44,362 nucleotides of DNA, from positions 1 to 44,362 of the forward strand of contig JAJRRC010000043.1 in assembly GCA_024279865.1 (NCBI GenBank). The letters are read 5' to 3'. Made by a program: the position numbers and the translations under genes. Below the pieces are notes generated by a model. It had not been told where the DNA came from and made no database searches. It saw only the letters and a program-made list of their open reading frames with translations. Shown here piece after piece: positions 14,124-44,362 of this stretch (its first letter is position 1; each line of letters opens with the position of its first letter). Origin of the DNA: Planctomycetota bacterium. GTDB lineage: Bacteria; Planctomycetota; Phycisphaerae; Phycisphaerales; Phycisphaeraceae.

Positions 14124-14723
14124 ATGGCCAACTATACCGGTCCCAAAGTCAAACTGTCTCGTCGCGTCGGTGTTCCCATCAGCGACACCCCCAAGCACAC
14201 AACCAAACGTCAATTGAATCCCAATGGTATTCACGGTTTCCGTGGTCGTCGTCTGCGGGATTACGGCATCCGTTTGAATGAAAAACAGAAGCTCCGATAT
14301 CACTTCAACGTGCTGGAAAAACAGTTCCGTCGTTATGTGGCTCGTGCCGGCCGCACCAAGGGTAACACCGGTGAAGTGTTGATCCAGTTGCTCGAACGAC
14401 GCTTGGATAATGCGATCCGTCGCATGGGCTGGGCTCGCACCATCTGGGCTGCACGACAAATCGTCTCCCATGGACACATTCTCATCAACGGCAAAAAAGT
14501 TGACCGACCTAGCTTTGAATTGAACGTGGGCGATACCATCACGATCAAAGAAAAAAACCAAAAGCTCGTTCGTGAAAACATGGAATCACTGGCCGGCCAC
14601 GAAGTCAGCGGATGGCTCAACTTTGACCCCTCCACCCTGACCGCCAACGTGCTAGCAACTCCTAGCTCTGACCAAGTGCCATTCGATGTGAACATGAACC
14701 TGATCGTCGAATTCTACAGCTAA
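14124..14723 (+). CDS. rpsD: 30S ribosomal protein S4
   Basis: A 199-aa S4 protein. It has the N-terminal helical domain (KHTTKRQLNPNGIHGFRGRR, KLRYHFNVLEKQFRRYV) and an S4 RNA-binding domain at about 95-160 (RRLDNAIRRMGWARTI, RQIVSHGHILINGKKV). S4 nucleates 30S assembly and represses its own operon in many bacteria. The N-terminal zinc-binding cysteines of the C+ type are absent, so this is the zinc-free form. It stands alone here, not in the alpha operon with rpsM, rpsK and rpoA. The stop TAA is directly followed by 11 C residues. Confidence 0.97.
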   Translation: MANYTGPKVKLSRRVGVPISDTPKHTTKRQLNPNGIHGFRGRRLRDYGIRLNEKQKLRYHFNVLEKQFRRYVARAGRTKGNTGEVLIQLLERRLDNAIRRMGWARTIWAARQIVSHGHILINGKKVDRPSFELNVGDTITIKEKNQKLVRENMESLAGHEVSGWLNFDPSTLTANVLATPSSDQVPFDVNMNLIVEFYS

Positions 14724-14760
14724 CCCCCCCCCCCGGACCCCCGGCAGTTTCCATCTGGAA
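14724..14760. repeat. C-tract motif directly after the rpsD stop codon
   Basis: After TAA come 11 C, then GGACCCCCGGCAGTTTCC. It resembles the motif at 41825 and 44186 (C-run, CCGGAAGTTTCC). See the G/C-tract family at 25346, 32155 and 41825. Confidence 0.6.
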
Positions 14761-25345: not shown

Positions 25346-25419
25346 AAAACTTCCGGGGGGCTTCCGGGGGGCTTCCGGGGGGACTAGGTGACCCCAAGGG
25401 AAAACTTCCGGGGGGGGGG
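25346..25419. repeat. tandem CTTCCGGGGGG repeat, G-quadruplex candidate
   Basis: Units AAAACTTCCGGGGGG, CTTCCGGGGGG, CTTCCGGGGGG, then an 18-nt spacer (ACTAGGTGACCCCAAGGG) and AAAACTTCC with ten G. Runs of 6, 6, 6 and 10 G on the plus strand could form an intramolecular G-quadruplex. It lies 40 bp before the large secreted-protein gene. Confidence 0.75.
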
Positions 25420-41808: not shown

Positions 41809-41824
41809 CGCTATCAATCCTTCT

Positions 41825-41938
41825 CCCCCCCCGGAAGTTTCCAAGGCAAGACCGAGGGGGGGGCTGGGAAAATACCTGAAAATTCCCGGAAAATATTCCG
41901 AAGTCTCAAATTCCGGGGTCTTATAATTCCGGGGGGGG
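41825..41938. repeat. G/C-tract spacer with ATTCCGGGG repeats
   Basis: On the plus strand: eight C (41825-41832) then GGAAGTTTCC, eight G (41856-41863), CCCGGAAAATATTCCG, AAATTCCGGGGTC, and AATTCCGGGGGGGG ending at 41938. C8 and G8 could form a hairpin. The last G-run is immediately before the (minus-strand) stop TAA of the GT4 gene, giving TAACCCCCCCCGG in the gene's direction, as after rpsD. Confidence 0.75.
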
Positions 41939-43069
41939 TTATTCTATACTCAACATCTGATCATAGACATCCGAAAAGGCTTTGTGCATCCGATCTTGGG
42001 TAAAATCTTGATTCACACGAGCCTGCCCCGCGAGCGCATAACGCTTACGCAAATCATCCGAAGCCAAAAGCGATCTTAAATTCGCCCCCAATGCCTCAGC
42101 GTCCTGACGCGGACTCAATAACCCCGTCTGTTCATGCAGCACCACCTCGGCATTGCCGCCCACCTCCGTCGCGCAAATGGGACAACCTCCCGCCATCGCC
42201 TCGAGCAAGGTCACCGAAACCCCCTCACTCAAACTACTCAATACAAACACATCCGCCCCTGCCACCAGCTCGGCAATATCGGTGCGTACACCTAAAAACC
42301 GAACCTGCGGAGCAATGCCCAATTCCTTTGCCAACTGTTTCATTGCTGACTGTTCGTTGCCGTCACCCGCCAACAGTAACACCGCATCGGGGCGTTGCTC
42401 AATGACTTTGGCCATGGCTTTAATGGCTGTGGCATGATCTTTGACCGAATGGAACCGTGCGACCTGCAAGACCACTGGTTGATCTGGGGTCAATCCCAGT
42501 TCGCTGCGGATCGCGGGCCTCGTTGACGTTGGCCTCACAAATTTCTCTGGGTTAATCCCGTTGTAGATCACCTTGATCCGCCGAGCGGGAATCCCCTCGT
42601 TTTTGACCAGGGCATCTGCCACGAACTGCCCCACGGCCGTGGCCCGGTCGGTGGGACGAAAAAGAAGTTGATTGGCGATCACCCGCTTGAGTTTTCGGAC
42701 GTCTGGATAATGACGGCCATGCTCGGTAAACAACAATCGAGGCCGACTACGCCAACCCCGTGAAACAGACCCATAAAAAAATGGGGTGTACTGATGGGCA
42801 TGTAACAAGTCCACCTGATGCTCCCTCGCCGCGTGGCGAATCCGCTTGGCGACCTTCCAATCCACCCCCGGCTGACGGCCCAGTGTAACAACCGTAAACC
42901 CTTCACTGGCAAGCTCTTCACCCAAATCACCCACCCCGTCAAGACAGAAATAAACCGTACGATAACGGCCACGCAATTGACGACCCAACGCCCCAGCTAA
43001 AACCTCTGCCCCCGCAAAAGCCAAACGGTGCAACACATGAGCAATCACAGGCAATTTTTGTTCAGACAT
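41939..43069 (-). CDS. GT4-type glycosyltransferase
   Basis: A 376-aa GT-B fold glycosyltransferase. The N-terminal domain starts VIAHVLHRLAFAGAEVLAGAL and contains LLHAHQYTPFFYG; the C-terminal nucleotide-sugar domain has VIYNGINPEKFV, VLQVARFHSVKDHATAI and LSSLSEGVSVTLLEAMAGG with the conserved Glu. The donor and acceptor are not evident; lipopolysaccharide, exopolysaccharide or a glycolipid are typical products. It is upstream of the GlmU-like gene in the same direction. Repeat copy E lies right upstream of its start region. Confidence 0.9.
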   Translation of the reverse strand: MSEQKLPVIAHVLHRLAFAGAEVLAGALGRQLRGRYRTVYFCLDGVGDLGEELASEGFTVVTLGRQPGVDWKVAKRIRHAAREHQVDLLHAHQYTPFFYGSVSRGWRSRPRLLFTEHGRHYPDVRKLKRVIANQLLFRPTDRATAVGQFVADALVKNEGIPARRIKVIYNGINPEKFVRPTSTRPAIRSELGLTPDQPVVLQVARFHSVKDHATAIKAMAKVIEQRPDAVLLLAGDGNEQSAMKQLAKELGIAPQVRFLGVRTDIAELVAGADVFVLSSLSEGVSVTLLEAMAGGCPICATEVGGNAEVVLHEQTGLLSPRQDAEALGANLRSLLASDDLRKRYALAGQARVNQDFTQDRMHKAFSDVYDQMLSIE

Positions 43070-43098: not shown

Positions 43099-43247
43099 AA
43101 GAAGCTATCAGTTGTCAGCTATCAGTAAGAAAAGAAGCAGAAAGAGACGAAAAATCCGAGCAAAACTAAAAAACCGCTTGCAAGTTCCCCCTCTTATCTG
43201 ACAACTGATCGCTGATCGCTGATCGCTGATAGCTGATAGCTTCTTTA
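43099..43247. repeat. heptad-terminated dispersed element, copy E (short)
   Basis: About 150 bp. Left end AAGAAGCTATCAGTTGTCAGC, right end GATCGCTGATCGCTGATAGC (heptads TGATCGC three times, then TGATAGC twice). The interior is unlike that of A-D and lacks the hairpin module, so it may be an internally deleted derivative. Confidence 0.75.
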
Positions 43248-43363: not shown

Positions 43364-44362
43364 TTGACTACCAACCTTTTCAACGTCGCCAACAAAGTCG
43401 TTCTCATCACCGGCGGAGCCAGTGGCATCGGCAAAGCCATTGCCACAGCCTTCGTCCAATCCGGAGCCAAAGTGGTCATCGGATCACGCACGCTCGAAAA
43501 AATTGAACAAGCAGTCACCGAACTCAATCAAATCAATCCCGCCAACGAGGACAGCCCCGCTGCCATCGGCGTAGCGTTAGATGTGACCTGTGACAACAGC
43601 GTCCAACGAGCTGTCCGAAAAACACTCGATGCCCACAACCAACTCGACATCGTCGTCAACTCCGCAGGCATCATGATGCGAAAGCCTACCGTTGAACTCA
43701 CCGCTGAAGAGTTCAACCTCGTCCACGAAACACACGTCACAGGCACCCTTCGCGTCTGCCAGGCGGCCCACAAAATCTTCCACGAACAACATCACGGCTG
43801 CATCATCAACCTCGCCTCGATCAGCTCCTTCGTCGATCTCGTCGAAGTCACCGCTTACGCAGCAGCTAACAATGCCATCCTCGGACTCACCCGATCTCTC
43901 GCCAACGAATGGGCCAGTCATGGCATCCGAACCAATGCCATCGCACCGGGCTTTGTCCCCACCGACATCAACCGCAAGATGATCGAGAACACCGACCGCG
44001 GCCGCCGCATTCTCGAACATACACCCATGGGACGATTCGGCTCAGGTGATGAAATTGCCGGCTCTGCTGTCTTCCTCGCAAGCCCCGCTGCCAAATTTAT
44101 CAACGGACACACCCTCGTCGTCGACGGTGGTTACCTCGCCAGCGGTATCGGCGACAGCTTCGCACCATGGGCCACCCCCCTAGACTACCCCCCCGGAAGT
44201 TTTCACGGGAAAATCTTCGTCAAAAAAAAAAACGATCCCCAAGCAAGTCTCCTTGCTGAGATAAACGAACCACAAGTCAAGAAAAACGTAATGAATCTTA
44301 TCGATGTTCAAGTCAACGGCTACGCAGGGATCAGCTTCAACGATCAACCCTTAACCGACGAA
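43364..44362 (+). CDS. SDR-family oxidoreductase, frame open to window edge
   Basis: The natural SDR part is about 274 aa (to 44185), starting at TTG 43364 with GGAG upstream. It has the Rossmann motif ITGGASGIGKAIA, VNSAGIMM and NLASISS with the catalytic Ser. The catalytic YxxxK is YAAAN (Tyr-Ala-Ala-Ala-Asn), so the Lys is missing. Sequence resembles gluconate 5-dehydrogenase-type SDRs. After residue 274 the codon where a stop is expected reads TAC within TACCCCCCCGGAAG, and the frame stays open through the linker into the NagA-like start at 44291. The lack of stop may be a true fusion, a stop loss, or a sequencing error in the C- or A-runs. Confidence 0.75.
   Translation, partial: MTTNLFNVANKVVLITGGASGIGKAIATAFVQSGAKVVIGSRTLEKIEQAVTELNQINPANEDSPAAIGVALDVTCDNSVQRAVRKTLDAHNQLDIVVNSAGIMMRKPTVELTAEEFNLVHETHVTGTLRVCQAAHKIFHEQHHGCIINLASISSFVDLVEVTAYAAANNAILGLTRSLANEWASHGIRTNAIAPGFVPTDINRKMIENTDRGRRILEHTPMGRFGSGDEIAGSAVFLASPAAKFINGHTLVVDGGYLASGIGDSFAPWATPLDYPPGSFHGKIFVKKKNDPQASLLAEINEPQVKKNVMNLIDVQVNGYAGISFNDQPLTDE
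44186..44215. repeat. C-tract motif at the expected SDR stop position
   Basis: TACCCCCCCGGAAGTTTTCA, followed by CGGGAAAATC. It is the same motif as TAACCCCCCCCGG after rpsD and the GT4 gene, but here the stop triplet is TAC. Confidence 0.6.
44291..44362 (+). CDS. NagA-like N-acetylglucosamine-6-phosphate deacetylase, N-terminal fragment
   Basis: The first 24 residues are MNLIDVQVNGYAGISFNDQP and LTDE, which fits the start of NagA-type amidohydrolases (D-x-Q-V-N-G-Y-A-G-x-x-F-N). These deacetylate GlcNAc-6-phosphate or related sugars. The gene runs off the window. The ATG at 44291 is in frame with the SDR gene and has no strong ribosome binding site. The metal ligands lie outside the window. 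Confidence 0.6.
   Translation, partial: MNLIDVQVNGYAGISFNDQPLTDE

Follow-up and report, generated by a model that had tools for sequence, protein, structure and literature searches.

A C-rich dispersed repeat at the expected stop codon of an SDR gene that reads in frame into a NagA-like gene

Introduction

Rickettsia palindromic elements are short dispersed repeats that occur both between genes and in frame inside housekeeping genes (PMC10969869, PMC2229807). They are palindromes of about 100-150 bp and encode one conserved peptide. In-frame fusions of open reading frames (ORFs) have also been described for several MITEs and other small mobile bacterial repeats (PMC2229807, PMC10969869). Here, we analyze a stretch of 44,362 nucleotides from an uncultured Planctomycetota bacterium of the family Phycisphaeraceae (referred to as the window), at the end of which an SDR gene is followed directly by a C-rich repeat (CCCCC-GGAAGT, often in tandem with a 12-bp period) and reads in frame into a NagA-like gene. 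No description of the C5GGAAGT repeat was found among open-licence papers. Like the Rickettsia elements, it is present between genes and in frame in housekeeping genes, where it adds protein segments; unlike them, it is built from a 12-bp C-rich unit that is read in several frames, and in this planctomycete family it is enriched directly behind stop codons. In its effect on proteins the repeat resembles the Rickettsia palindromic elements, but by structure it is not one of them. It resembles MITEs in that inverted C5GGAA / TTCCG5 ends flank some of its copies, whereas it lacks a constant length and many of its copies are single-sided or tandem. The inverted ends of some copies (e.g. window 41824-41941) suggest mobility; no target-site duplication has been demonstrated. 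The genes themselves correspond to an ordinary pair, an SDR of the gluconate 5-dehydrogenase type and a short NagA-like deacetylase, whose order and strand are shared with four relatives (G027, G007, G002 and G016). However, the relatives retain the SDR stop codon and the catalytic lysine, and neither is present in the window.

Results and discussion

The SDR gene and its open reading frame

The protein scores above the curated cut-offs of two SDR profiles (PF13561, 201.7 bits against a cut-off of 27; PF00106, 166.6 bits against 26.6), its classical SDR domain spans residues 11-257, and among PDB proteins it is close to gluconate 5-dehydrogenase-type enzymes. The TGxxxGxG cofactor motif is present as TGGASGIG (residues 16-23). 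In SDR chemistry the lysine of the YxxxK motif is catalytic. The window protein reads YAAAN at this site, where a lysine is found in 19/19 orthologues (counting YxxxK, or SxxxK-free variants in which the lysine is kept, at the same column). Because this lysine is catalytic, the protein may be inactive or altered in function; judged from its sequence it is an SDR by descent whose activity is doubtful and which, having lost the lysine, may be decaying. Advanced decay was rejected, as the frame is intact and only two private changes (G92N and K169N) occur at positions that are invariant in the 19 orthologues; the protein is otherwise conserved like its relatives, which show 0-4 private changes each. 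The K169N change fits relaxed selection on the 3’ end of the SDR gene, and it could itself be a second miscall.

No stop codon interrupts the frame between TTG 43364 and position 44362, where after 333 codons it runs off the end of the contig. The first-pass annotation had described a frame that stays open from this TTG through ATG 44291 to the window edge, over 927 nt to the ATG and hence a multiple of three, and both statements hold (44291 minus 43364 is 927). It had also located the site of a possible lost stop, and it did so correctly: codon 275 of the SDR gene is a TAC that adjoins CCCCCCGGAAGTTTTC, at the position of the stop in the nearest orthologues, which are 274-275 residues long. 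The 3’ end of the gene encodes SFAPWATPLD, followed by TAC and then directly by the C-run and GGAAGTTTTC. In the three nearest orthologues with a covered gene end (L039, L040 and L041; 82-83% identity) SFAPW is followed by ATPEEA, AMPEEA or APEEA and the stop, and the remoter orthologues (59-74% identity) stop at about the same place, so that across the family the SDR orthologues (59-83% identity) share approximately the same end. All of the SDR relatives compared lie outside the organism’s own genus. Coordinates of the features are collected in Table 1. Upstream of the SDR gene, the intergenic region (window 43100-43241) contains an array of repeats (CTGATCG and GCTGATAGCT types), which also have inverted counterparts.

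Table 1. Positions of the features in the window.
Feature	Position	Strand	Evidence
SDR gene, 274 residues to the expected stop; TTG start, GGAG upstream	43364..44185	+	PF13561, E=1.7e-59
AAC (Asn169) replacing the catalytic Lys of YxxxK	43868..43870	+	Lys in 19/19 aligned orthologues
TAC codon at the position of the orthologue stops	44186..44188	+	5’ edge of the C-run; L039, L040, L041; parallel in purL
Dispersed repeat copy, C5+GGAAGT(T)	44188..44204	+	genome count and consensus; GGAAGTTTTC 3 times in window
A11 run	44222..44232	+	read from the sequence
NagA-like (N-acetylglucosamine-6-phosphate deacetylase-like) gene, first 24 codons, cut by contig end	44291..44362	+	
TAA stop of gene 14124-14723, adjoined by C-run then GGA	14721..14737	+	
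Repeat pair, inverted arrangement	41824..41941	-	C-run on the - strand adjoins the TAA of gene 41939-43069

The 105-nt segment that links the two genes, which begins with the TAC and ends just before ATG 44291, is stop-free in the SDR frame and holds stops in the other two frames. Openness as a sign of coding was rejected, since 31% of intergenic windows of the same length (105 nt) in the sampled genome show no stop in a given frame anyway. With a mean codon score of 0.06, the linker falls between the averages of coding and intergenic sequence: 89% of coding windows score higher, and 28% of the intergenic windows that are free of stops reach or exceed its value. The score is therefore ambiguous, neither proving nor excluding that the linker is coding. 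A one-base slip at the A11 run would cause the SDR frame to meet a stop before the NagA start. A structured RNA at the junction was considered and rejected (fold z-score of -0.52, and no Rfam match within the window). What does stand above chance at the junction is the C-rich motif and its location at the expected stop.

A C-rich repeat is dispersed through the genome

The sequence CCCCCCCGGAA (C7GGAA) occurs 304 times in the organism’s own 3.42-Mb genome, as compared to 0 occurrences of the reversed control. The core of the repeat is a run of five or more C followed by GGAAGT, and copies form short arrays with a commonest spacing of 12; the 12-bp unit, CCCCCGGAAGTN, is read in several frames (PGS, SGG, PPE and FRG). 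The repeat is present across the family, with 210 copies in one relative (G015) and 37 in the complete genome CP087563 (G030), and elsewhere in the order it is rare. In an 816-kb sample, 173/273 C5+GGAA copies lie within predicted ORFs, a figure inflated by over-extended ORF starts; on this count the idea that the repeat is a strictly intergenic mark was rejected. The spacing between successive GGA triplets is a multiple of three in 69/81 cases inside ORFs and in 23/52 outside, which suggests that the C-runs are correctly assembled, the in-ORF spacing being partly selected by the ORF-calling procedure. Examples of copies within the window are those at 25351-25415, 32272 and 41827-41936.

The repeat adjoins stop codons, and purL shows a parallel change

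The first-pass annotation pointed to two other genes that keep their stop at the motif. This was borne out, as TAACCCCCCC is found twice in the window (14721 on the + strand and 41932 on the - strand, against 0.09 expected), each occurrence coinciding with the stop codon of a predicted ORF. The arrangement is widespread. In the 816-kb sample, 15/566 genes have a sense copy that starts exactly at the first base behind the stop, as compared to 0-4 for any other offset close to the gene end. Of the 15 stops adjoined in this way, 14 are TAA, which accounts for 53% of stops overall. Genome-wide, TAACCCCCCC occurs 43 times, and most of the occurrences that were read come after a long ORF. Other genera of the family, including the complete genome CP087563, show the same stop-adjoining arrangement.

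A second gene independently carries the change seen in the SDR gene. In purL (G000:C38:85227-88334; L122:5227-8334) the codons for LDW are followed by TAC, the C-run and GGAAG, and a further 14 codons are read before the next stop; purL ends in LDW* in 16/16 relatives with a covered end. Among the TAC5+GGAA sites read genome-wide, only those in the SDR gene and purL continue a long ORF in frame. The suggestion that a stop codon was lost with the motif thus gains support, both from the nature of the motif, a genome-wide repeat that adjoins stops, and from the TAC of purL set against its 16 relatives.

We consider it probable, on the strength of these observations, that the two genes belong to a tandem pair in which the SDR stop, at the edge of the repeat, has become TAC, yielding an SDR with a tail and occasional read-through. 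In the proposed sequence of events, an SDR gene and a NagA-like gene that form a tandem pair conserved in part of the family would have come to hold the C-rich repeat directly behind the SDR gene, and the arrival of the repeat, or growth of its C-run, would have replaced the last base of the SDR stop to give TAC. Translation of the SDR would then continue into the repeat, and an SDR with a C-terminal tail would be the likely product. The 34 codons that follow happen to be open and in phase, so reading would continue into NagA, and some SDR-NagA read-through polypeptide may also be made; NagA would still be able to start at its own ATG 44291. Loss of the lysine has perhaps relaxed selection on the SDR, allowing the loss of the stop to persist.

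The alternative that bears most directly on the TAC is an error of base calling or assembly at a homopolymer edge close to the end of a contig, in which case the real stop would be kept and the genes would be separate. At the SDR gene, the evidence for stop loss is the consensus of one assembly at one site 176 bases from the end of the contig (C61, 44362 bases, in a 122-contig assembly), a proximity that favors an error. Furthermore, the changed base follows a G-run on the other strand, and Illumina substitution errors are commonest after GGG and CGG (PMC4787001), and a stop is present here in all relatives. Against this, the purL change is found at 88 kb in a contig of 209 kb; this mid-contig position speaks for a real process at the repeat edge and against a pure contig-end artefact. 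Two changes among roughly 20 stop-adjoining copies in the sample would also represent a very high consensus error rate, and copies inside ORFs retain triplet spacing. On this ground we favor a real change and regard an error as unlikely, while still giving it appreciable weight.

The NagA-like gene and the question of a fusion

Because the window ends with the contig, the NagA-like part comprises only 24 codons. They encode MNLIDVQVNGYAGISFNDQPLTDE and match the starts of the short SDR-linked NagA-like genes in G027, G002 and G007, and the gene’s own start, ATG 44291, is conserved. The G027 relative (306 aa) matches TIGR00221 (E=9e-49) as well as PDB NagA chains; its score of 166.3 is below the equivalog cut-off of 225.65, its match begins at profile position 58, and the window itself contributes just the 24 codons. 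A search of the rest of the assembly for the remainder of the gene returned a 31% paralogue as its sole match, so completion from another contig was rejected; the missing remainder lies in an assembly gap.

The SDR and NagA-like genes are neighbours, in the same order and on the same strand, in all four relatives noted above, and the junction between them varies. In G027 the gap is 108 nt and the frame is the same, with a TGA in between; the gap is 37 nt in G002 (frame +1), 8 nt in G007 (frame +2) and about 270 nt in G016. Such variation in the offset speaks against a fusion that was inherited. In the nearest relatives (L039-L041) the two are not adjacent, as a search up to 4 kb from the SDR gene gave no NagA motif. 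No fused SDR-NagA ORF was found in 60 relatives or in 397 genomes of the class; the latter search scored three candidates per genome, and a rare fusion could escape it. With separate genes in the relatives and none joined in the class-wide search, a conserved SDR-NagA fusion was rejected.

These data also bear on the first-pass proposal of a bifunctional SDR-NagA protein, i.e. one polypeptide with a 35-residue linker that the cell uses as such. The frame is open and in phase, adjacency of the genes in four relatives makes a functional link plausible, and MurC and RimO are examples of proteins in this genome that tolerate repeat-coded segments. Nevertheless, the proposal does not stand up well: in addition to the separate genes, the differing offsets and the conserved ATG of NagA, the linker is repeat-derived, its codon score is ambiguous and its openness is expected by chance in nearly a third of cases, while the A11 run would make a fusion frame unstable. 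The SDR part lacks its catalytic lysine, which is at odds with a refined bifunctional enzyme, and NagA is visible for 24 codons only. We therefore judge a true two-enzyme protein very improbable; it would be a curiosity if real. The preferred reading remains that of a tandem pair with a lost SDR stop.

The repeat inside other proteins

Many genes carry the C-rich repeat internally and at their ends, which is unusual. As for the Rickettsia palindromic elements, it forms in-frame inserts in conserved proteins whose homologues are without them. In MurC (G000:C38:102885-104534; L123:2885-4534), an insert of about 68 residues separates two blocks aligned to PDB MurC, with oppositely oriented repeat copies at both of its ends. 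In RimO (G000:C42:7405-8928; L149), about 48 unaligned linker residues, including the repeat-coded TSGGSGGG, separate two aligned blocks. The joining of other normally separate proteins by the repeat was not borne out: Pfam searches of 19 repeat-bearing ORFs gave no obvious further gene fusion, three of them being without a Pfam match. We tentatively propose, as a possibility that falls short of probable, that a C5GGAAGT repeat shared by this planctomycete family (Phycisphaeraceae-type MAGs), which comes to lie in sense orientation immediately behind TAA stops and inside genes, at times removes a stop, and thereby lengthens proteins and occasionally joins neighbours in one frame. If true, this would constitute a route of repeat-driven protein extension outside the Rickettsiales. 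The copies at stops and inside MurC, RimO and PurL offer a testable system for protein extension and stop loss, and the complete genome CP087563 from the same family aids such tests.

Further copies within ORFs were observed. In PurL, a variable linker around residue 635 also contains repeat-coded residues. A DnaA-like ORF (G000:C33:4782-6533; L146) contains a copy between its ATPase and DNA-binding domains, and in an MnmE-like ORF (G000:C54:2625-4097; L157) a copy is located in the N-terminal part.
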